The notes below the pieces were generated by a model that did no database searches, had not been told where the DNA came from, and saw only the letters and a list, made by a program, of their open reading frames with translations. Position numbers and translations under genes: made by a program. Shown here one piece after another: positions 2,531 to 64,000 of a DNA stretch of 64,000 nucleotides (positions within the stretch are counted from its first letter, which is position 1; every line of letters starts with the position of its first letter). Source of the DNA: Lineus longissimus (taxonomy: Eukaryota > Nemertea > Pilidiophora > Heteronemertea > Lineidae); contig NC_088317.1 of assembly GCF_910592395.1 (NCBI RefSeq), positions 3,534,001 through 3,598,000 of the forward strand, written 5' to 3'.

Positions 2531-3935
2531 GAGTTCCAATCAGCTTATTTGTGTTGACTTATTTGCCCTTGCCAGTCAAGGCCTATATCGACCCCCATAG
2601 AATCTATTTCACCCTGGTCGATGTTGTCAAGATTTACCCTGATGGAATCAGACAGCTTGGCGCTCATGCGATCATGTCAGTCGTTGAGTAAACAAAAATA
2701 CTTGCGGTTGCTGAGGACACGTCACAGAGGATGCAGATTTGTCTATAAACTATTTCTGTAGGCCAACTAAATGCAGTATATACTGCGTCGTGTCTCCGTC
2801 ACATAAGGCATTTTTCGCAAGCCTTCCGAGGGACAAATACGAAGTTCTGCGAAAACTGTCCATTGTTTCACGAGCACCAGTTTTTAAGAACCATTGGTCT
2901 ATATCATTGAGGACAATATTACCCAGCTGTCGACTGCCCAGTTACCTCCTATTCTCCTTATCCCAGTTGCAAGGTACGTGCTATGATTAAAAAAAATAGT
3001 ATTAACCAGCCAAATGAGCAACCGTCACATGGAAGAGGAGCTTAATCAATTAATTGCCCCTAATTATCAGAATTCGGTACTGAGTGCCAATGCAAACTAT
3101 GAAATTATTTGTCACACATTTTCTCCTTTTACATTTCTCTTTATACATGTACACTTTTGATATCATTGAAATCCAATGCCATAGAATTACGAGCAGTTCT
3201 AAAACTTTTTCTCTGTATTCGCGGAAAGAGCTTTAGTTTTTCGTATTCGGATTTCAACACACAAACGAAGGAAAGATATACAACCCAACCTCTCAACTTT
3301 TATTACACCCAGCATGCAGCGCACTCAACGTTGACCATGAGCATGAGCAACTGACCACTTGTTGTTGAACAGTGACATCACAGCAGGCTAAGTGCAGTAG
3401 ATCGAAGATTTTGTGAAAACAGATGAACGGTTCGTACCTTGAGGAGTATGAGGCAGTATGTAATTTTAGTTTCTCCGAGTCTTATCACAATTCAATTTTT
3501 AATAATTTATGTGTGGCGATCTCAATCTCAACAAGCGACCGCAAAACCTCTTTGGCGGAGACTGACCTGGCAACGCCAGTTTCCGCCAAAAAGGTATTGC
3601 GGTCGGAATGATATTATACGTTGTATATGTACATGTACACGTACTAGCATTCCTTATACACAGTTGCAGCGATAATGGAGACAGCGCGCGACGGGCTCCT
3701 AACAGAGTTGTATGTGTGCATCGAGAGCAAAAGAGGTTGGAGGGACAACTCCCACGGAGTCTTTGAACACTGAAGCTTGAATTTCGAGCATAAGTAAATA
3801 GTGAAATGCCCGAAAACGAATTTCGACCATGACAGACACATGGCTCAGCTGACGGCGGAGACGATTCAGACGATTATTCACTGATTGGGCCTATCAAGCC
3901 AATATTACATCTATTACTTATTCTGAGGCAGGTCA

Positions 3936-5150
3936 ATGGCTAAAATAACAGACGGTTATCATTTGAACGCCGATGGTCGTGAGTTCACACAAATCTTGAG
4001 TGTCGTCACAAATGGCACAACCCTCGTCGGTCCTCAGGCCTCTCGCGCAATAATTGAATTAAAGAAGATCACAGGTTTCATCCAGGTCTATGTTGACTTA
4101 GTCATTGTTTGCGTCGGACTATTTGGAAACATTTTCTCCATCATCGTGTTTTCGAGATGCAGGAAAAAGGATGCAGCGAGCATTTTTTATTTGACCTTTC
4201 TTGCTGCAAGCGACAGTGGAAATCTCGTAATGTATATTGTTGCGTTTTGGAGTGGTCATGGCCTAAAGGAACTATCTCCTGGCGACATAGTTTTCAATAT
4301 GATGACGCTTTCAACAACAACTTGCAAGTTATTTATCTATTTGATTGACATTTTCGCCTTCTCGTCTGCGTGGACCATAATCGTTTTTAGTATGGAGCGC
4401 GTTGTTGCCGTATGGTGGCCATTAAAAACATCATCTCTCCTGACGTCATTCAGACGGAGGACGGCCATTTTGGTTTTGGTGACGGTTGCGCTGGTTTCGA
4501 ACATCCCAGTTCTTGTTTTCACAGAAATATTTGAAGAGAAAGGATTCACGAAATGTTTTTACCGCCTCGACGGATTCAGTGGTGACGGGAAGTTTTTATT
4601 CGTATTTTTCTTTTTGACCACAAAGAACTACGCTCTTCCTTGTTTCCTGATTCTAACTCTAAACTCAGTCTTAGTGGTCGGCATAGTAAAGCCCAAAGGC
4701 AAAGGGGCCGCTGTTCGGACGAGTAACTCAAAAATTGAAGCTATGGAAATGAGATGCGTTATAAACCTTCTCATTATCTCTACAATCTTCATTCTCTTTA
4801 ACATCCCATTTGTTACGTTATGGACTTATTACAATTATGAAAACTTTATCCACGGTTTGGAGAGCAAGTCCATAGACGAAGTTGACATGTTGCACGGAAT
4901 AGGAACGTTTAGTATATCTTTGACCATGATTAACTACAGCATAAATTTCATAATATATTCAAAGTCGCTTGATTACTATCGCAATGAAGGGAGGAGGATT
5001 CTTCAGAGTCTACTATGCTGTTGCAGGCACACTGCTGGCTCTGGTGCGGAGGAATCTGTTCTCAGTTCGACCGAAAGTCCACGAATGACCATGACATTAA
5101 CGTCAGAAAATCTACCACGCAAACAGACTGCAAGTGTTAAAAATATTTGA
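3936..5150 (+). CDS. Rhodopsin-like (class A) GPCR, tandem copy 2
   Basis: A 404-residue intronless receptor almost identical to copy 1 up to TM6, with scattered changes such as Ala for Thr at residue 80 and Leu for Phe at 125. It keeps the TM3 and ECL2 cysteines, the Glu-Arg-Val form of the DRY box and the Pro-less TM7 motif. From the third extracellular loop onward it differs sharply from copy 1: the loop reads GLESKSIDEVD and TM7 contains Ile where copy 1 has Met, as in copy 3. The reading frame is intact, so it is probably functional. The ligand is unknown. Confidence 0.88.
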   Translation: MAKITDGYHLNADGREFTQILSVVTNGTTLVGPQASRAIIELKKITGFIQVYVDLVIVCVGLFGNIFSIIVFSRCRKKDAASIFYLTFLAASDSGNLVMYIVAFWSGHGLKELSPGDIVFNMMTLSTTTCKLFIYLIDIFAFSSAWTIIVFSMERVVAVWWPLKTSSLLTSFRRRTAILVLVTVALVSNIPVLVFTEIFEEKGFTKCFYRLDGFSGDGKFLFVFFFLTTKNYALPCFLILTLNSVLVVGIVKPKGKGAAVRTSNSKIEAMEMRCVINLLIISTIFILFNIPFVTLWTYYNYENFIHGLESKSIDEVDMLHGIGTFSISLTMINYSINFIIYSKSLDYYRNEGRRILQSLLCCCRHTAGSGAEESVLSSTESPRMTMTLTSENLPRKQTASVKNI

Positions 5151-6491
5151 GAGTTCCAATCAGCTTATTTGTGTTGACTTATTTGCCCTTGCCAGTCAAG
5201 GCCTATATCGACCCCCATAGAATCTGTTTCGCCCTGGTCGATGTTGTCAAGATTTATCCTGATGGAATCAGACAGCTTGGCGCTCATGCGATCATGTCAG
5301 TCGTTGAGTAAACAAAAATACTTGCGCTTGCCGAGGACACGTCACAGAGGATGCAGATTTGTCTATAAACTATTTCTGTAGGCCAACTAAATGCAGTATA
5401 TACTGCGTCATGTCTCCGTCACAGAAGGCATTTTTCGCAAGCCTTCCGAGGAACAAATATGAAGTTCTGCGAAAACTGTCCATTGTTTCACGAGCACCAG
5501 TTTTTAAGAACCATAGGTCTATTGAGGGCAATTGAGGGCAATATTACCCAGCTGTCGGCTGCCCAGTCACCTACTATTCTCCTAATCCCAGTTGCAAGGT
5601 ACGTTTTATGATTAAAAACCGTTTTAACCAGCCAAATGAGTAACAGTCACATGGAAGAGGAGCTAAATCAATTAAACGCCCCCTGATTATCAGAATTCGG
5701 TACTTAGTGCCAATGCAAACTATGAAATTCTTTGTCACACATTTTGTCCTTTTACATTTCCCCTTATACAAGTACATGTACACTTTTGATATACATGTAA
5801 TTGAGTCCAATGCCGAGCAGTTCTTAAGTTTTTTTCTCTGTATTCGCGGAGAGCTTTAGTTTTTCGTAACAAAAGGTATTCGGATTTCAACACACAAACG
5901 AAGGAAAGATATACAACCCAACCTCTCAACTTTTATTACACCATTCAGTGCACAGTCAGCATGTAGCGCACTCAACGTTGACCAAGAGCATGAGCAACTG
6001 AGTATGAGGCAGTATGTAATTTTAGTTTCTCCGAGTCTTATCACAATTCAATTTTTAATAATTTATGTGTGGCGATCTCAATCTCAACAAGCGACCGCAA
6101 AACCTCTTTGGCGGAGACTGACCTGGCAACGCCAGTCTCCGCAAAAAAGGTGCTGCGGTCGGAATGATATTATACGTGTACATGTACATGTACTAACATT
6201 CCTTATACACAGTTGCAGCGATAATCGAGACCAGCGCGCGACGGGCTCCTTACAGAGTTGAATCAGAGTTGTATGTTGGATCGAGAGCAAGAGAGGTTGA
6301 AGGGACAACCCGCACTGAGTCTTTGAACACCGAAGCTTGATTTCGGGCACATAAAATTGAAATATCAGCAGACGAATTTTGACATTGACAGACACATGGC
6401 TCGACCGACATCGGAGACAATTCAGACGATTATTCACTGATTGGGCCTATCAAGCCAATATTACGTTTATTACTTATTCTGAGGCAGATCA

Positions 6492-7694
6492 ATGGCTACT
6501 ATAACAGACGGTTATCATTCGAACGCTGGTGGTCGTGAGTTCACACAAATCCTGAGTGTCGTCGTTGACGGCACAACCGTCGGTCCTCATGCCTCTCGCG
6601 CTATAATTGAATTGAAGAAGATCACAGGTTTCATCCAGGTCTATGTTGACTTAGTCATTGTTTGCGTCGGACTATCTGGAAACATTTTCTCCATCATTGT
6701 GTTTTCGAGATGCAGGAAAAAAGATGCAGCGAGCATTTTTTATTTGACCTTTCTTGCTGCAAGCGACAGCGGAAATCTCGTGATGTATGTTGTTGCGTTT
6801 TGGAGTGGGTATGGCCTAAAAGAACTGTCATCTGGTGGTATAGCTTTCAAAATGATGACGTTTTCAACAATACCTTGCAAATTATTCAGTTATTTACTTG
6901 ACGTTTTCGCCTTCTCGTCTGCCTGGACCATAATTGTCTTCAGTTTGGAGCGTGTTGTTGCCGTATGGTGGCCACTAAAAACATCATCTCTGCTGACGCC
7001 ATCGAGACGAAGGACGGCCATCTTAGTTTTGTTGGCGGTTGCGCTGGTTTCGAACATCCCTGTTCTCGTTTTCTCTGAAATATTCGAAGAGAAAGGATTC
7101 ACGAAATGTTTTTACAACCTCAAAGGATTCAGCGGTGACGGGAAATTTTTTTTCGTATTTTTCTTTTTGACCGCAAAGAACTACGCTCTTTCCTGTATTC
7201 TGCTTCTAACTCTAAACTCGGTCTTAGTGGTCGGAATAGTAATGTCCAAAAAGTCCGCTGTTCGTACCAGTAACTCAAAGACTGAAGCTAGGGAAATGAG
7301 ATGCGTCATAAACCTTCTCATTGTCTCTACAATCTTTATTCTCTTTAACATCCCATTTGTCACGTTATGGACGTATTACAATTACGAAAACTTCATCCAC
7401 GGTTTGGAGAGAAAGTCCAAAGACGAAGTTGACATGTTACACGGAATTGGAACGTTTGTTATATCTTTGACCATGATTAACTACAGCATAAATTTCATAA
7501 TATATTCGAAGTCGCTTGATTTCTATCGCAATGAAGGGAGGAGGATTCTCCAGAGCCTATGCTGTTGCAGGCACACTGCTGGCTCTGGTGCGGAGGAATC
7601 TGTTCTCAGTTCGAACGAAAGTCCACAAATGACCATGACATTAACGTCAGAAAATCTGCCACGCAAACAGACTGCAAATTTTAAGAATATTTGA
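6492..7694 (+). CDS. Rhodopsin-like (class A) GPCR, tandem copy 3
   Basis: A 400-residue intronless receptor of the same array. It is shorter than copies 1 and 2 through loss of one residue in the N-terminal tail, a shortened third intracellular loop (MSKKSAVR) and one fewer residue near the C-terminal Cys cluster. The TM3 and ECL2 cysteines, the Glu-Arg-Val motif and the N-Y-S-I-N-F-I-I-Y form of TM7 are present. Substitutions gather in the second extracellular loop (NLKGFSGDG) and the TM2-TM3 region, as expected if ligand contacts are diverging. The N-terminal half of its upstream conserved block is truncated relative to units 1 and 2. Confidence 0.87.
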   Translation: MATITDGYHSNAGGREFTQILSVVVDGTTVGPHASRAIIELKKITGFIQVYVDLVIVCVGLSGNIFSIIVFSRCRKKDAASIFYLTFLAASDSGNLVMYVVAFWSGYGLKELSSGGIAFKMMTFSTIPCKLFSYLLDVFAFSSAWTIIVFSLERVVAVWWPLKTSSLLTPSRRRTAILVLLAVALVSNIPVLVFSEIFEEKGFTKCFYNLKGFSGDGKFFFVFFFLTAKNYALSCILLLTLNSVLVVGIVMSKKSAVRTSNSKTEAREMRCVINLLIVSTIFILFNIPFVTLWTYYNYENFIHGLERKSKDEVDMLHGIGTFVISLTMINYSINFIIYSKSLDFYRNEGRRILQSLCCCRHTAGSGAEESVLSSNESPQMTMTLTSENLPRKQTANFKNI

Positions 7695-9040
7695 GAGTTC
7701 CAATCAGCTTATTTGTGTTGACTTTTTTGCCTTTCCCAGTCAAGGCCTATATCGACCCCCATAGAATCTGTTTCGCCCTGGTCGATGTTGTCAAGATTTA
7801 CCCTGATGGAATCAGACAGCTTGGCGCTCATGCGATCATGTCAGTCGTTGTGTAAACAAAAATACTTGCGCTTGCTGAGGACACGTCACAGAGGATGCAG
7901 ATTTGTCTAAAAACTATTTCTGTAGGCCAACTAAATGCAGTATATACTGCGTCGTGTCTCCGTCACATAAGGCATTTTTCGCAAGGCTTCCGAGGAAAAA
8001 TATGAAGTTCTGCGAAAACTGTCCATTGTGTCACGAGCACCAGTTTTTAAGAACCATTGGTCTATATCATTGAGGACAATATTACCCAGCTGCCAACTGC
8101 CCAGTCACCTCCTATTCTCCTTATCCCAGTTGCAAGGTACATTTTATGATTAAAAAAAAGTATTAACCAGCCAAATGAGCAACAGTCACATGGAAGAGGA
8201 GCTAAATCAATTAAACGCCCCCTGATTTTCAGAATTCGGTACTAAGTGCCAATGCAAACTATGAAATTATTTGTCACACATTTTCTCCTTTTACATTTCC
8301 CCTTATACGAGTATACTTTTGATATCATTGAAATCCAATGCCATAGAATTACAAGCAGTTCTTAAGTTTTTTTTCTCTGTATTCCCGAAAAGAGCTTTAG
8401 TTTTTCGTAACAAAAGGTATTCGGATTTCAACACACAAACGAAGGAAAGCTATACAACCCAACCTCTCAACTTTTATTACACCATTCAGTGCACAGTCAG
8501 CATGCAGCGCACTCAACGTTGACCATGAGCATGAGCAACTGAGTATGAGGCAGTATGTAATTTTAGTTTCTCCGAGTCTTATCACAATTCAATTTTTAAT
8601 AATTTATGTGTGGCGATCTCAATCTCAACAAGCGACCGCAAAACCTCTTTGGCGGAGACAGACCTGGCAACGCCAGTCTCGGACAAAAAGGTCTTGCAGT
8701 CGGAATGATATTATACGTGTACATGTACATGTACTAACATTCCTTATACACAGTTGCAGCCATAAATGGAGCAGCGCGCGACGGCCACCTATTTCAGAGT
8801 CGAATCAGTGGTGTATGTTGCATCGAGAGCAAATGAGGTTGGAGGTTCAAACCCCACTGAGTCTTTGAACACCGAAGCTTGACTTCGGGCACGAGTAAAT
8901 ATTGAAATGCCCGAAGACGAATTTCGACCATGAGAGACACTTGGCTCGGCTGACGGCGGAGACAATTCAGATGCTTATTCACTGATTGACCCTATCAAGC
9001 AAGCCAATACTACATTTATTACTTATTCTGAGGCAGATCA

Positions 9041-10180
9041 ATGGCTTCTATAACAGACGGCTATCATTTGAACGCCGATGGTCGTGTGTTCACAAAAATC
9101 TTGAGTGTCGTCGCAGACGGCACAACCGTCGGTCCTCATGCCTCTCGCGCTATCATTGAATTGAAGAAGATCACAGGTTTCATTCAGGTCTATGTTGACT
9201 TAGTTATTGTTTGCGTCGGACTATTTGGAAACATTTTCTCCATCATTGTATTTTCGAGATGCAGGAAAAAGGATGCAGCGAGCATTTATTATTTGACGTT
9301 TCTTGCTGTAAGCGACAGCGGAAATCTCTTGATGTATGTTGTCGCATATTGGAGCGCCTACGGACTAAGCGAACTGTCGTCTGGCACCATCGTCGTCAAT
9401 GCGATGACATTTTCGATAACATCGTGCAAGCTATTCAGTTACTTAGCAGACGTGTTCGCGTTCACTTCTGCATGGACCATAATTGTCTTTAGCTTGGAGC
9501 GTGTTTTTGCCGTGTGGTGGCCACTGAAGACATCATATTTGCTCACTTCCCGGAGACGTCGGATGGCTTTAATTGTCTTGATGACGGCTGCGTTGGTTTC
9601 CAACATCCCTGTTCCGATTTTTGCAGAAATATTCACGGAAAAGGGATATACCAAATGTTTTTATAGTCTCCCTGGCCTCAACGGTAATGAGAAATTCTTA
9701 TTCGTATTCTTCTTTCTGACAACGAAGAACTATGCGCTGCCGTGTGTTTTGATTTTGGCGCTGAATTCTGTCTTGGTTGTCGGGATAACTAGGTCCAAAA
9801 CCTCCACTGTTCGGAAGAGCAATCCCAATATGGAATCAAGAGAATTGAGATGCGCCATTAACCTTCTCATTATCTCGACCGTCTTCATTCTCTTGAATAT
9901 ACCATATGTCACATTATGGTCTTATTATAACTACGAAAACTTCATCCACGGCTTGGCAAGACAGTCAAGAGACGAAGTTGACATGTTACACGGAATCGGC
10001 GCATTTGTAGTATCCTTGACCATGATAAACTACAGTATGAACTTCATTATATATTCAAAGTCGCTTGATTACTATCGCAACGAGGCGCTGGTGATCTTTC
10101 GTATAATATGCTGCTGTTGCGGGCGGACGACTGCGGCCGATTCCAGCTCTACTTCGAACGGAAAAGGAGGGCGAAAATAG
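9041..10180 (+). CDS. Rhodopsin-like (class A) GPCR, tandem copy 4, divergent tail
   Basis: A 379-residue intronless receptor, the most diverged of the four. TM2, the first extracellular loop, TM3 to TM5 and the third intracellular loop carry many substitutions, while the conserved cysteines, Glu-Arg-Val and the Pro-less TM7 motif remain. After residue ~350 (YYRNE) the C-terminal tail is unrelated to the other copies: it has a Cys-rich CCCC patch then a Ser/Gly/Lys-rich end. The repeat homology also stops here, so this is where the duplicated unit joins different DNA. It could be the founder copy, or a copy whose end was replaced. Confidence 0.87.
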   Translation: MASITDGYHLNADGRVFTKILSVVADGTTVGPHASRAIIELKKITGFIQVYVDLVIVCVGLFGNIFSIIVFSRCRKKDAASIYYLTFLAVSDSGNLLMYVVAYWSAYGLSELSSGTIVVNAMTFSITSCKLFSYLADVFAFTSAWTIIVFSLERVFAVWWPLKTSYLLTSRRRRMALIVLMTAALVSNIPVPIFAEIFTEKGYTKCFYSLPGLNGNEKFLFVFFFLTTKNYALPCVLILALNSVLVVGITRSKTSTVRKSNPNMESRELRCAINLLIISTVFILLNIPYVTLWSYYNYENFIHGLARQSRDEVDMLHGIGAFVVSLTMINYSMNFIIYSKSLDYYRNEALVIFRIICCCCGRTTAADSSSTSNGKGGRK

Positions 10181-21542: not shown

Positions 21543-23822
21543 TCAAACGCTAGGAGTCCAGTCCTCCGTCGTCGAATTTATTGCATAATTAGCCATCACC
21601 TTCATGTTTCTGTTCAGGAGCGATGACTGCGAATCACAACTTCCTACAGACGCCACTTCTTCAATGTCGCTCAAATGAGGGACGAACCTCCGCCGGGCCG
21701 GACTTTCCTCTCCTGGGAGGGAGCAGAGCTCGGGACACTCGTGCTCCTCGTATTGCTGTTCAGCGAGCTGTTCCGTGACGGAGCGCTCGTAAGACTTGTG
21801 GTAATACAACACAGCGGTCGTGATGATGACGCCTAGGACGACAGGGAGGAGAAAACAACATAATAGATATATCCATTCCCGCGGATGGCAAGTGAGGGTC
21901 AATCTGATTGGTTGAAATGTCTGTTCTAAGTCTTCGTAATCGATGTAGATTTTCTGGTATGTCTTCGGGAACATGTCGAAGGAACATAACTTGGTGTAAA
22001 AGCACATATGGTTGCTTTCTAAGCGGTAAGTCCGGCGATTGAGGTAGATGACGTAAGGCAAGATTTGATCTTCGCAGTCTTTTTGAGGCTTGAATATAAA
22101 ATAGTACAAGTCTGTATCCTTAGCATAGAACGGAAGGGACGTCACTGTTTGGTTTAATGAATATTCCGCCATGACGCACGTGACACATTTGCCCTTTGAG
22201 TGGGACCACGACTCGTAATTTTCCTCTCCTTTTATGATAAGAAAAGTGACATTCAAAACTGGTCTGAGCAAATGAAATGAGACGTTTGAGCGTTCTATGA
22301 TGTGAAATTTCCAAGGTTTTATAGTCTTGTTCACGCCGAGTTCTAAAGCGAGACGTGGTGACGTCACGTTATAGATGCCGCCATTCTCCGCCGGTGGGTA
22401 ATTCACTAGCACCATGTTTATATGCACTGGTGATTGTACATCCAAGTACCTGCACATCGTTCTGGAGATTGGCGAAATTGGGTACTGGTCCGTCGGCGAA
22501 ATGAAAATGTCCTCCTTCCCGTAGATGATAAATATTGATACGCATGCTAGGGATGTTGGCAGGATGATGATAATGGACCAGCATGAGGCTAGAATCGCCC
22601 AGAGGAGGGCCTTGCCCTTTCGACCCTTGACCTTGAGCCCCTCGGTCTGCTCGAGCTCGTAGCTGTGAATCATGTCGAGACCAAGTTCATACCTGAAAGA
22701 AACAATAGGCCGATTAAGATATGCGCGGTTCTTCGGGCGAAGAAAGCCATCTCGATAAATAGCCAGAATGAATTCCTTTTTCCAAAGCTCAAAAACTTTT
22801 ATTTCTAAAAGACTATATATACTTCCTTTTCTTGATCGCGATGAGTCTATCACAAATCAATTTTGAACGAAGTTATTGATCGATGGCGGCAGTTCTGTTA
22901 TCGAAAGATCATCGACGCGGCAGATATATATATATATGTATATCACCAGTTATCTGTCTGATAATCGATCACCGGTCATTTTTTAAAAGAGAAATGTCTC
23001 ATGACTTCCTCGATTGCACTTGATGTTATCGCCATATGTACATCACGAGCTTGTCTCTCGTGAACAACTTAACCGTTTGCGACGCATGGACACCGACATC
23101 AGAAAAACAGGAGTAAAAGTACGCTGCTTATGGACTGCAGAGATGGCCGAACATACCCCACCGACTTTGTAATCATAAGCTGCTCTTAGTGACACTCGGC
23201 AGTAATCATCCTTTCACAGCAGCCCTTTGTATCATCGTTCCTAAAATTCATTCGCTTTGATTGGGGTCTACAGTGGGTGGATGACACCTATAAATTTTCG
23301 TTGAAGACAAAGTGGGTCACCACAATTTAGCGCATGCCGACTTATCGGCGGTGAATATTATCAGTCCCAAAGTCTCCTCCTTTCAAGGAGAATGAATACA
23401 CACACAACGACGTTGGATCGGCATGATTTAGCGAAGTGCGCGATGTAGGCCTATACATGTATCACTTTCAGTGCAACATGTGGTGATCGTCGGCTACGTC
23501 ACGTGCCTCGACGGTTTTTTCGTTCTCGGGTGCCCTACCGGGAAACTAAAAGGCTTAAAAGGTACGCAACGTATGACAAGACCACTCATTTATAAAGACA
23601 TGAGAGATTTCTTTCGCCGCCAATGAGATTATGACGATCATTTAATCATCTATAAAAATTAATGCCAATGACTCCAAATAAGAAAGGGTTTGAATACACC
23701 GTGGAAAAAATGCCAGGGGTAGACCTCTGATATGAACCTGAAAAAATAAAAAATAAGACGTAGGCTTACCTCTCGCCATCTTTTATTGGTCGCCTCGGTG
23801 TGGGTATTGGAACTAATAACAT
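21543..23822 (-). CDS. Two-pass membrane glycoprotein with large extracytoplasmic domain, two exons
   Basis: Exon 1 (23822-23770) encodes 17 residues plus 2 nt and begins MLLVPIPTPRRP. Exon 2 (22692-21543) follows a cttttcag-type acceptor and continues YELGLDMIHSYELE. The total is 400 residues. There are two hydrophobic helices, at about 47-75 and 291-314. Between them lies a ~215-residue region with several N-glycosylation sequons (NVT, NKT, NVS, NVT, NQT) and paired cysteines including KGKCVTC. The C-terminal tail (~86 residues) is polar with PELCSLPGEE and Ser-rich clusters. The two-helix layout with a large middle domain recalls the N-terminal part of APD-type membrane proteins, but no RING domain follows and I cannot confirm that link. 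The open frame upstream of 22692 is intron read-through. Confidence 0.72.
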
Positions 23823-56200: not shown

Positions 56201-59200
56201 TTCTTCAAATCGCTGGTTGTGACGAATCATCGGCTACTACTACTTCTCGAGGACAAGGACAGCTTTCAGCTCCAGCCAGTTGTAGAACAGTAAGTATCAT
56301 GTCCTAGAAAGTCGTCCTTCCATAGCAGGCCTTTTGACCACTCCACAAAGCCCTGCTGAAGCTGGACCTCATACACGAACAAGTGATGTGAGTTGTGCAT
56401 ACATACGCTCGATTTGACTTGTTCTAGTGTGCAGCCTATCTGTTGACACAGAAGTATCCACCCTTTGTTCACTTTTGCCTGTATGTTTGGCACAGAATAG
56501 AGGTATATTTTGGGCCACCTCTGTGTGCCCGTGTGCATTTGGGAGCTGAGTGTTGCATGAGTGACAGAAGAGCTAATAAGTTCGGAATTGCTAGTACATG
56601 TACTGCTGGGCCAGTCTGCATTAGATCACATTCTAGAATCAGAAAGAATAATAATTCCATAATTTTCTTTTCTCAGATTTGCTCAAGTGGACATCATGGA
56701 CAAATTCACCCTCCTGCTTCAGGAGTTTGCCACAAATGGCAGTTTCGTCAACAACTGTTTATTCACGATGATGCACCATATAGCCGGCGATTGTGAAAAA
56801 CTTGATCTGCTAGTCAAGCCAAAAACGCTCAACACACTGGTACAGATTACAGAACATGAGCTACCATTGGCTGAGGTACGTACGTTTCCTGAAATTTTGT
56901 GATAACTCATGTTGATTCTTCTGCTTTTCTCAATTCACCCATTAGAGTGCCTCGCAAGCTACATATGTTTCTCTCTTGGTGTGGTCTTTTGCTCACCCTG
57001 GCGAAGACACCAGGTAGAAGGAACCTCGGTTTTACATCTTATTTGAAGGACAAAGCAATTTAGGGCCGGGTCTCTTGTTCGAGGATACAAAGACAAAAGA
57101 GTGGTGATCCTTCTGAGAGTTGACCCCAGGACCTACTTTATATGAGCCCAGCACTCAAACCACAATGCCACAGTGGTCTCTCTGGGAAACCGAGTTACGT
57201 ACTATGCGTTGGTTGATTTCAGTACCCCTACAAAAGCCACTCTCTGTTTAAGCAAATCATGGCTCATTTTATCTCGTTTCAGGTATTTGAGGACTTGATC
57301 GACTTTGTGTTTGACAGGTTTATCAACCTTATTGAAGGGAACCCTAACGATTGCGTCACCATTCTGAGTGAGGAGGACAGCACGGAACATGGGAAAAAGT
57401 AAGTGGTAGTAACATTAGCCACTGGGCTATGCGACTCCTAAAGGCTGTGATGTTACTTGGCCTTTTAAGATACACTCTGCTTAGAGGAACAAGGAGTTAT
57501 GATCGGAATACATTTACCATAAACATCTTTTGATTGCAGGGAGTCTATCCAAGATGATTGCCCGCCACCTTGGACAGAGTTGGAAAACACCTATCTTTGT
57601 CTGCATTACCTTGAAAACTTCAACGACTCCAACCTTCTGCAGACAATCCAGAGCAAACTTGCCACTGTCAACATCTCAAAATCACAAAAACAGGTCAGTT
57701 TGATACGAATTCTTGGCATTTTTGCCTCCGGACTAGAGAGTTTGACGATACCAAGTACAGCAGTTGCTGTTAAGTGTCTCAAAGGCCTGTGCAATTGTGT
57801 TGATTGCTGGCGAAACCTATCATGTCTTGCAAGGTCCATACCATTTGCTGGCTCTGTTAGCTGATTGCGTCAAAATGTCTGGCGCAGTGTCATTTGAACC
57901 TCGTTCTAAACCCTTCACCCTTATTCTACAGATTCTAAAGCAGCTCTTCTACGTGGGCCTCCTCGAAGACAATGAATTCAAGAAATTCGAAGCGACATTT
58001 GTGACCGAAACTGATGTCAAAAAGGCAGAGGTCAAATTCTCGGATATGGAGAATGCTGAGTCTATCGAAACCTGTTTGAAGAAAATCTCGGAGAAGGACG
58101 GCTTGCCGATGATCCAGTGGCTACAAAAGTTCCTTCTGGAAGCGTGTTATGTCAAATTAGGTCAGTTTAGTATACGTCATTCTCGGTTAGATGTACTTTG
58201 CAGTGTCAATTTCAATAGTCCTGGGGCTGACACTATCTGACTCATAAACTTGAAAAATGTGTTTCTTAATACATGTCAACATTGCTGAAGTCCATCATTG
58301 TTTTTCAGGAGGAAGGGACTCTCACTCAAAAGAAGAGATCAAACGATATGAAGAACCAGTTCCCCATGTCTCACTTCGTAAGTAAATATCTTTATATGGT
58401 ACCATTGGTGCCCTTTGCCTGCGACCTAATTTTAATGTTGACATATTGTAGGAAACGGTTCCATGGATGCCCTTTGCCTGCGACCAAATTTTAATGTTGA
58501 CATATTGTAAGAAATGGTTCCATTGGTGCCCTTTGCCTGCGACCTAATTTTAATGTTGACATATTGTAAGAATTGGTTCCATTGGTGCCTTTCACCTGCG
58601 ACCAAACTTTAACTTCAACTTAACTTTTCAGTATTGCAAGAAATGGTTCTATTGGTGCCCTTTACCTGCGACCTAATTTTAATGTTGACATATTGTAAGA
58701 AATGGTTCCATTGGTGCCTTTCACCTGCAACCAAACTTTAACTTCAACTTAACTTTTCAGTATTGTAAGAAATGGTTCTATTGGTGCCTTTCACCTGCAA
58801 CCAAACTTTAACTCCAACTTAACTTTTCAGTATTGTAAGAAATGGTTCCATTGGTGCCTTTCACCTGCAACCAAACTTTAACTCCAACTTAACTTTTCAG
58901 TATTGCAAGAAATGGTTCCATTGGTGCCCTTTACCTGCGACCAAGAGAAGATGTTATCAAATCAGTACTTCCACAAGCTTTTGGAGGAGCTCAACTTTGT
59001 CATGCCGCAGGAGAGTAAAATGGTGTATCCCAGGATCCCTCATTCTTGGATGGCAAAAGATCTGTACGAGAAGGCTCTACTGCTTGCTGGAAATGATGAG
59101 TCAGGTATGTTGGAACTGAGGTTTCACGGTTGCCTCTTACGTAGATTAGAATTTCATGCTGTAAAGTTCTGCTGTCATGCTGTCAGGATGATGTGAAGAA

Positions 59201-59857: not shown

Positions 59858-60766
59858 TGAAGTCGGGACAATTTGCTGTTTGATCAGAATCGACCATGAC
59901 TTTCAAAGGGACATAATTATATAAATATTAATCTGGTCAGTGAGGTGTACTTTGTGATTTAATTTTATTATTCTGCAGTATTATTACCTCTATATTTTCT
60001 TTAATGTGCTTAAATTAGTTATCAAATTATTAAAGGTCTACGACATTCGTTCAAATTTTGAAATTTTAGAATTGATTTTGGGGTTTTCCGTTATGTAAAA
60101 AAGACTTGCCATCTTTTTGGTAAACATGATTGGAACAAACTTGTTTAGACCATAGGCACCAGCAGTTTAGCTGGAACTTGAAATCCTAGTGATTAAAACT
60201 CTTTCAAAACGAATTGAATGCCAATTTCAAGGGCGGGAGTCAGTTCTTTGTTTCTAAAGAACATACACCCATCCTTGAAATTTGCATTCACTTCATTTTG
60301 AAGGAGTTCCAATCGTTTTAGGATTTCGAGTTCCGGCCAAAATGACGGTACCTTTGGTCAAGTGCTACATAGCTGAAAGCCTTGAACTGCTTAAATTGCT
60401 GTTGATGTGATAAGGAACTTTCAGATACACTTTGGTGCTGTTTTGCTAAGATATTGTGATTGGAAGTTCAAAGTTGTACAGATTTGCCAAATGGGGTGAT
60501 CACTGTGAAGGGGTTTTCGGTTATACATGGAGGTTGTGGTCAAATGTGATTTTAAGTTCCAACAGATGTGTAAGTTGTACAGTTTTGGCGAATGGTGGTT
60601 ATCATGTTGGGCCACTAAGATGTACTTGTGTGTTGTGATCCAAAGGTATTATAAACTGTGATTAAAAGTTCTGAATTGTATAGTATAGCTGTGCGCGAAA
60701 TCATTCTTGAATTGGTCATTTTCTAAATGGTCTATTGTACATCTTAACTGTGTATCATGTTAACAC

Positions 60767-60772
60767 AATAAA
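60767..60772 (+). terminator. Polyadenylation signal for timeless
   Basis: AATAAA after a ~1.35 kb 3'UTR that includes the SINE. The next gene is on the opposite strand with its 3' end near 61030. Confidence 0.5.
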
Positions 60773-61029
60773 TGTTGAGAAGTGAAAGTAATAAATTTTT
60801 CTCTTCATACATTTTTGACAATTTTTTCATGAGAAGTGTCACGTTGATGCCAACGAACTTGTCCGAGTCCTGGTTCCCGCACGCCAATCTACATGTATCC
60901 CAGAACCTCAGTGGTGACAGGCACAGACGTTTTCAATGCGCCACTCCGAAAGCCCCCAAGGCTGTCTTCAAGGAACATCAAAGTTGGATAAAAAACGAGA
61001 CTAAGACATAAGTAATAGCAAACAAATAT

Positions 61030-61035
61030 CTTTAA
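61030..61035 (-). terminator. Polyadenylation signal ATTAAA for the DsbA-like selenoprotein gene
   Basis: On the minus strand ATTAAA lies about 460 nt after the stop codon, which would place the proposed SECIS hairpin (61316-61262) inside the 3'UTR. Confidence 0.45.
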
Positions 61036-61261
61036 TTTCATTAAAAAGATCATTCTTAGAAGATAACTTTCTATATTTAACAACTTCTGAACCGAAAAGT
61101 CGGGGAATATGGCATAAGAATGTTCAAACCAAACTCTGTCTCCTTTTGTTTAAGAGCGTACAACAGGATTGTACAATAAACTTGAGACAGTGGGTCCTCG
61201 CATTGTTACTCCACATACCTCGTGTCCTTGTAGAAAATAGTCCTCGGTCTTATTTCAAAAC

Positions 61262-61316
61262 AAGTCAATTATCAAACTGTTCGAACTGATTTATCAAACA
61301 GGTGTCATTGAGACTT
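61262..61316 (-). promoter_or_regulatory. Candidate SECIS element
   Basis: In the 3'UTR, 178 nt after the stop codon. Read on the minus strand: a basal helix of AAGTC (61316-61312) with GACTT (61266-61262), extended by AAT/ATT; the core ATGA (61308-61305) opposite TGAT, giving U.U, G.A, A.G and C.U pairs; one A-T pair and a C.T mismatch; then the 8-bp helix CTGTTTGA/TCGAACAG; and a 9-nt apical loop TAAATCAGT with unpaired As near its 5' side. About 12 nt separate the core TGA from the loop AA, as in eukaryotic SECIS elements. A SECIS recruits SBP2 and the Sec-specific elongation factor so that UGA is read as selenocysteine. Confidence 0.8.
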
Positions 61317-61494
61317 TCTCTGAAGAAGAATAGAGTTATTTTCTGCAAGAATATGGCAATCATTATAATCATAAACTTAATAGTGTATTATCTATAATTA
61401 ATAAGTTGTTAACTTATATTCTAAAAGCCCAAAGGAGGAGCTCTACATCTATTTAGATCCTTGATAGGTCTGGTCATGAAGCATTGTTCACTGA

Positions 61495-62951
61495 TTACAC
61501 TTTTTCAAACGTGGCAAGGAAAGCGCTGACATCTTGGGCTCCTGAGAAGGTCGGCTTGCCGTTCATCAAGAAATATGGGACACCTGGAAGTAAAGAAAGT
61601 TTATTGGAAATAAAGAGAGACGTGATGTAACCTGAGGGGGAATCTGTCGCAATGTTCCGCTGTAAAAATGGCCCCATCCCGATTCCTAATATGCAATTCA
61701 GGCCAATTCAACTGAAATAAGGAAGTCTATCCCTAATCCAGACTGATTTTTGGCCAATCCCAGCATCCCAAAAAATACCATTTCTCCCGACATCAATATA
61801 ACCTACAGTTCTTTCGGTTTCCTTCAGACATAACCAAAAAACGAACCCAAACTAAGAGCCACAACATATGAGATTCCCACTTACCAGAAACACCTTTTTT
61901 CTTCCACTCTTCGTCCTTCTTGTAAATCTCTTCAAACATCGCCTGATCACTCATTGCTTGATCAGCAGCCGCCACATCAAGGTTCATTTCACGCGCTAGA
62001 TCAAGGAGATCGGCCTTGTTCAGTTGGGTTCCATCGGTGAAATACGCCTTGAAAAATCAAAGAGAGGAATTTCATGACTCATTGAAACATACTCTGTTTT
62101 TTTATCTACATGGTGCATGACTTTTATTACTTTCATTACTTTTTGGCCAATATGAAAGCGACGCCTTCCTAAGAGCCGTAGAGTAACCTCCAGGAACGTG
62201 ATACTGTCATGCCTACTCCTAGAATTCAGGGCTCAATAGGAGGCCAAGCTGACCTTGAACCCTTTGATTTACACTGGAATTGATTGGTTGAACTCCCGAT
62301 TGTGGTGGGAGTGTAGGCCTACAGCATTGTGTATTAGTGCATTTCTGTTTTCCTGAGCCACCAGTAAATACAAATGGTCTACCCCTTTAAGCATGTGACA
62401 GTATCACCTTTCTTTACCTTGAACAAACTTTCTGCAAGATCATTCTGCCTCTCTGCTCCGTATTTCTGGAGAGTGAAATCCATGAGGACATGGGACAAGG
62501 CCGTGTTCGGACGGATGTCTGACTTCCCTGTGAAGTCGATGTTCACGGCCTGACCTGCTGCCTTCAATTGTTGACCAACCCTGCAAAGAAGAGTGACATG
62601 ACACAATGAGCTCGAGGCCAACGGACGTCAGTTTCACCCCCCGAAACCCACTTGGTCTTGGATCCCCTCCCCCAATGGCCGATGCCTGGCCACCCTGGCG
62701 ACTACGTCTCCGTTTCTGCCCATTTTTGTGGCACATGGACATTTATCGCTTTACCTTGGATTTCCCGGTGTGTCTGGTGGCTTCGGTTCACCCTCCAGCG
62801 GTATCTGTGGGCGAATCATAAACGGATGCCAGCGGACTGAGAACTCGTATTTTTTACAAGCTTCAATCGCGGCTTCCAGTTTACGCTTCCCCACCCAACA
62901 CCATGGTCAGATGACGTCACTGACCACATCTACCACAATCTTTGAAGCCAT
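61495..62951 (-). CDS. DsbA/FrnE-family thiol-disulphide oxidoreductase with selenocysteine (UPWC active site)
   Basis: Exons 62951-62755, 62580-62418, 62047-61885 and 61583-61495; phases close to give 203 residues. The N-terminus reads MASKIVVDVVSDVI, then TGA (62909-62907, codon 15), then PWCWVGKRKLEAAI. FrnE-type DsbA proteins have SDxxCPWCYxGKRxLE here, so TGA replaces the first, nucleophilic active-site Cys. Start codon, TGA and Cys18 are all in one exon, so splicing cannot remove the TGA. Downstream features are normal for the family: RWHPFMIRPQIP; an alpha-helical insert; AYFTDGTQLNKADLLDLARE; and the cis-Pro loop SGVPYFLMNGKPTFSGAQ near the end. A SECIS-like hairpin lies in the 3'UTR. 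No signal peptide is visible, so it is probably cytosolic. The likely role is redox or disulphide exchange on an unknown substrate. The alternative, a pseudogene with one stop, is disfavoured by the otherwise intact gene and the SECIS. Confidence 0.9.
62907..62909 (-). other. Selenocysteine codon (in-frame TGA)
   Basis: Codon 15 of the DsbA/FrnE-like gene, between ATC (Ile14) and CCA TGG TGT (Pro-Trp-Cys). It is placed exactly where the family has the first Cys of CPWC, the usual substitution site for Sec in redox enzymes. Confidence 0.88.
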
Positions 62952-63483
62952 TGGATTGCAAAAACACAATCTTCTTCACCAGGAATGTTGAGTTTTGTTG
63001 TTTTGGGGTGGGCGGGTCGTTGTTTATCTGAATACTTTGTATTGATTTGCTGTGTCATGCAAGTACCAAACAACCTTGATTTATGGATTCGACAAATTTT
63101 ATCGCGTGCATTCGCCTGCACATTTTATTTCCTTTCATCCTGGAAGCGAGGATCCGTAGTTCCACTTTTCACCGCTTCATTTTCGTTTTCTCAAATTCTC
63201 TCACAGTTTTGTCGAATAAACCACATCAAAACCAAAGTTATTCATCTACAATCGTATTTCAAAGGTAAAGTGTATATAGAAGAACCCTTCCGCAATGAGA
63301 AAAGTAGCAATTTTGCGATAGTTTCTTTGAAACCATCTAATGTTTTACTTCACAAAATCTATACAACAGCGCCATTCTATATTTAGCACCTTAGCAACCT
63401 GTCAGACTCAATAGTAAATGTGTTACAAAGCCTGTTCCAACTGCTCAAGTCTTGTCCAATGTCATCATCACAAGACCATTGGG

Positions 63484-63792
63484 CTAAACTTTAGAATCCC
63501 CGATCGGAAATGACGTAGTTTGATCGCATTCAACTATAAATCCATTGAACAGTGGTGCTTGGTTAGTCAACCGATGACCTTTCTTTTTTGGGGTGTGATC
63601 GGGGATCGTAAACTCGTTGCGACCATTGTATGCACCATGAATGAAGATGCCAAAGGCAAAGACAAGTAACTTTAGAATTTCTGGCATTTTTTTGTTGGCC
63701 ATTAGCGCTTGCCTGTAGCCTATATGTATAGATTCATGCACTTGATTGGGAACAACAATGCCAACGAGGTATGCTACCGTCGCTACCAGCAT
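63484..63792 (-). CDS. Small hypothetical membrane protein, 102 aa
   Basis: A single open frame of 102 codons starting MLVATVAYLVGIVVP. There is a hydrophobic segment at about residues 2-15 and another near 40-52 (LKLLVFAFGIFIHGAY), then a polar tail. I do not recognise the family. Its start lies 70 bp from the start of the divergent RCBTB-type gene, so a shared promoter is plausible. The C-terminal half looks less protein-like and may be read-through past a splice donor. Confidence 0.45.
   Translation of the reverse strand: MLVATVAYLVGIVVPNQVHESIHIGYRQALMANKKMPEILKLLVFAFGIFIHGAYNGRNEFTIPDHTPKKKGHRLTNQAPLFNGFIVECDQTTSFPIGDSKV

Positions 63793-64000
<208 letters not shown>

Follow-up and report, generated by a model that had tools for sequence, protein, structure and literature searches.

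We found, on the minus strand of the window (the whole 64,000-nt stretch of Lineus longissimus DNA analysed here), a gene that we read, with a probability of roughly 93%, as a functional gene encoding an animal selenoprotein of the DsbA/FrnE family. A Sec gene is by far the best reading because an in-frame stop falls on the codon for the catalytic Cys and a SECIS-like hairpin lies in the right place behind the gene. Sec is very probably used at the active site, an assignment well supported by these features of the sequence, and published precedent for Sec in other invertebrates strengthens it further. The first-pass annotation had proposed a DsbA/FrnE selenoprotein with a UPWC active site and a SECIS element, and the DSBA domain, the position of the TGA and the hairpin all support that proposal.

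The gene comprises four coding exons between 62951 and 61495 (minus strand), which join in frame into 612 nt, with all three introns of the GT-AG type. The coding part of exon 1 (62755–62951) carries both the start codon and the proposed Sec codon, a TGA at 62907–62909 where the bacterial relatives aligned at this point have a Cys codon. It is followed by exon 2 (62418–62580) and exon 3 (61885–62047), each with GT-AG joins, and by the coding part of exon 4 (61495–61583), which holds the GVP motif and the TAA stop. This TGA at codon 15 and the TAA at codon 204 are the only in-frame stops of the joined coding sequence, and the product has 203 residues when codon 15 is taken as Sec. Upstream of the ATG, an in-frame stop occurs at nine codons, with no in-frame ATG between. 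Joining the exons and checking the frame confirmed the earlier description of an intact four-exon gene in which a TGA, in the same exon as the start codon, replaces the first Cys codon of the CxxC motif and is the sole internal stop.

A single internal stop is also what a pseudogene in decay would carry after one nonsense mutation. Such a history is extremely improbable for this gene, given that the remaining 202 codons read through, all three introns retain their GT-AG ends and the frame, and neither the PWC nor the GVP motif is damaged; the stop, moreover, falls exactly on the catalytic Cys, with the SECIS-like hairpin downstream. No second copy of the gene was seen in the window, where tblastn matches outside the gene had E values of 0.39 or worse. 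The three introns of the gene speak against bacterial contamination, as does the small number of long open frames in the window (12 stop-to-stop frames of at least 150 aa in 64 kb), and this reading was rejected.

With Cys typed for Sec, the predicted protein matched Pfam DSBA (PF01323) at E 1.2e-31 (110.4 bits against a cut-off of 25.6), residues 6–197 covering profile positions 1–187 of 191. The UPWC motif occupies residues 15–18, with the proposed Sec first and C18 last. The GVP motif is intact, and its Pro is P177, which we take to be cis and to lie opposite the UPWC motif. The DSBA domain, together with the UxxC motif and Pro-177, places the protein in the DsbA/FrnE family; NCBIfam gave a weak partial match only (NF041057, 27.5 bits against a cut-off of 190). 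Four distinct sequences among solved structures matched at E ≤0.001, the best being two FrnE sequences, followed by SCO1869 and by a possible 2-hydroxychromene-2-carboxylate isomerase. The FrnE structures (5cnw, 5co3, 5coh, 5e59, 5xwh and 5cp1), presumably from the bacterium Deinococcus radiodurans, resemble the Lineus protein over residues 3–200 (E 2.1e-21); their CPWC aligns with the UPWC here, and GVP is kept in both. They differ in being Cys forms and in having 260 residues rather than 203, with the match stopping at FrnE residue 215.

When species genomes of bacteria and archaea were scanned with peptide patterns, 515 matches were obtained, 460 of which encode relatives, and the best 80 of these, at 28–38% identity to the Lineus protein, were kept. 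The sample is biased towards Cys forms, since one of the six patterns used in the scan included the Cys. In this sample of the best 80 of 460, with its leaning to Cys, the codon at residue 15 was TGC in 45 and TGT in 34, with one relative unaligned, and TGA occurred in none of the 79 aligned bacterial loci. Residue 18 is Cys in all 80 of these best relatives, and Pro-177 is present in 79. The relative unaligned at residue 15 (L050) keeps the second Cys (CYIGKRR); in the frames examined, the rest of its motif appeared in neither the Cys nor the TGA form, and it was counted as neither. One exact pattern for the TGA version of the active-site motif found no match in viral contigs, and the 257 matching records in the plasmid collection were all below 60% identity. 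The animal gene, which has introns, is thus far from every bacterial gene compared.

Codon 15 of the Lineus gene is an in-frame UGA where homologues hold Cys, and, of about 203 places where a stop could fall, this one falls on the codon of the catalytic Cys. TGA is one base from TGT or TGC, and all 79 bacterial relatives aligned at residue 15 carry Cys, both of which would fit a sequencing or assembly error in an ordinary Cys-form DsbA/FrnE gene. We consider such an error very unlikely: it would have to strike this one codon of 203, coincidence (about 1%) would have to explain a SECIS-like hairpin at the expected place, and Sec forms of DsbA are reported from several animal phyla (PMC3473315).

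The hairpin (61262–61316, minus strand) is on the same strand as the gene, some 190 nt 3' of the stop codon, in the inferred 3' UTR. It contains an ATGA quartet at 61308–61305, an 8-bp helix II (61301–61294 paired with 61284–61277), a 9-nt apical loop that opens TAAA, with AAA at 61292–61290, a 3' TGA at 61274–61272, and a 5-bp basal helix (61316–61312 paired with 61266–61262); the spacing from TGA to AA is 12 nt. By the descriptor made here, the core elements of a SECIS are present in a 3' UTR whose extent is inferred. The minimum-energy fold from RNAfold holds both helices in three of four segments, the fourth being too short for the basal helix. The sequence and these folds agree with the 3' UTR hairpin noted earlier, with its core quartet, spacing of about 12 nt, apical AA and closed helix. 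The whole looks like a form-I-like SECIS, and its AUGA_AA type is common to almost all invertebrate SECIS elements except those of sponges, as described in PMC3473315.

The weight of the hairpin comes from its position and not from the window-wide count. A strict SECIS descriptor, composed after the site had been seen, found two sites on both strands of the window (61316–61262, minus strand, and 8833, plus strand), and simulated sequence yielded 0.87 per 64 kb on a single strand; the whole-window count about equals the chance expectation. The chance rate of this descriptor was 0.007 per 500 nt at the composition of the window and 0.017 per 500 nt at that of the 3' UTR (67 in 2 Mb). The site at 8833, about 1.1 kb past a receptor-like ORF ending at 7694, was taken as chance. 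A more relaxed descriptor proved too permissive and did not discriminate: it gave 13 rows at nine positions on both strands of the window, and a mean of 5.9 rows per 64 kb on a single simulated strand. Among the rows of that descriptor the site did not stand out by its fold energy. Rfam scans of 60000–64000 and 61230–61480, run without a positive control, returned no match to a SECIS family with an E of 10 or less; the nine matches listed all fell under their gathering scores and belonged to miRNA families, snoRNA families and one lncRNA family. This missing match counts against the hairpin, though weakly, and it is not decisive because the sequence of SECIS elements is poorly conserved.

If the gene works as proposed, its spliced mRNA would carry the UGA at codon 15 and the SECIS in the 3' UTR, and SBP2, eEFSec and tRNA-Sec would recode the UGA as Sec. 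In the resulting thioredoxin-fold protein, the Sec of U-P-W-C would attack in thiol/disulfide exchange, with C18 as the putative resolving residue. The protein is probably cytosolic, since no N-terminal signal sequence was seen by eye. The UGA might instead go unrecoded and a shorter protein start at Met-45, for which exon 1 offers an in-frame ATG 3' of the TGA; older annotations of Ciona and amphioxus genes put the Sec-TGA in the UTR, according to the account of them in PMC2874816. Such a product would have none of the CxxC active site and would miss the beginning of a domain that, in the Pfam match, spans residues 6–197, which makes such a start exceedingly unlikely, and a full-length Sec enzyme remains our reading of the locus.

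Other features were detected elsewhere in the window. Four ORFs on the plus strand (1307–2530, 3927–5150, 6483–7694 and 9032–10180), of 382–407 aa, are near copies by eye; the one that was scanned matches Pfam 7tm_1, the rhodopsin-type receptor family, and the four appear to be a local GPCR gene expansion. Together with the introns, this gene content points to animal DNA. A 437-aa ORF at 21543–22856 (minus strand) matches the E3 ligase APD1-4 middle domain (PF16041, E 1.4e-07); this name is associated above all with plants, and the window it stands in here is animal-like. Tandem repeats, their units about 59–129 nt long, form an array at 58396–58944, just past an ORF at 57746–58240 (plus strand). 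Nested inverted repeats at 60148–60359 resemble a foldback element, one pair having 59-nt arms separated by 6 nt and the other 41-nt arms separated by 130 nt, and four weak miRNA-family matches at 60209–60296 probably reflect only its hairpin. No tRNA gene was found within the 64-kb window.

Judged from its sequence, the Lineus gene is a further member of an already known animal selenoprotein family. Sec-DsbA was published for Ciona and Branchiostoma in 2010, with Sec replacing the upstream Cys and a SECIS after the gene (PMC2874816). Counts from 2012 give two Sec-DsbA in Nematostella and one each in Lottia, Capitella and Branchiostoma, with Cys-form DsbA in Amphimedon and Trichoplax, and the same source calls the family widespread in marine invertebrates (PMC3473315). 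SelenoDB 2.0 lists the family, annotated as FrnE (DsbA) (PMC3965025). The first-pass annotation took Sec forms to be reported mainly from bacteria and algae, a view overtaken by these sources; its claim of rarity falls with it, and the observation itself stands. Its expectation that annotation would go wrong around the TGA has a counterpart in the misannotation described for Ciona intestinalis and Branchiostoma genes (PMC2874816).

The gene is a clean example of a type that annotation has truncated at the Sec codon, and it extends what is on record about how animal DsbA has changed between Sec and Cys. We hold it possible, as a guess at somewhat under even odds, that a lineage unlisted in print has kept a Sec DsbA/FrnE with a form-I-like SECIS. 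If so, the patchy occurrence of Sec and Cys forms of DsbA/FrnE across animals would gain one more data point. Experiments on the function of animal Sec-DsbA were not met in the relevant portions of the cited literature, which were not searched specifically for them, and this locus alone would not settle that function.

The closest published likenesses are the Sec-DsbA genes of Ciona and Branchiostoma, which share with the Lineus gene the DsbA family, Sec at the upstream Cys and a SECIS past the gene, as well as a Sec-TGA in the first exon, reported for C. intestinalis and B. floridae (PMC2874816). They differ in the SECIS of Ciona, where both elements are form II (PMC2874816), whereas the hairpin here is form-I-like. 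The Sec-DsbA of Nematostella, Lottia and Capitella are alike, by their description in PMC3473315, in belonging to the DsbA family with Sec. Sec-FrnE in Mamiellophyceae and M. viride (PMC6627142) and algal DsbA selenoproteins (PMC7539508) are likewise eukaryotic Sec forms under the same family name, and they come from algae and not from animals.
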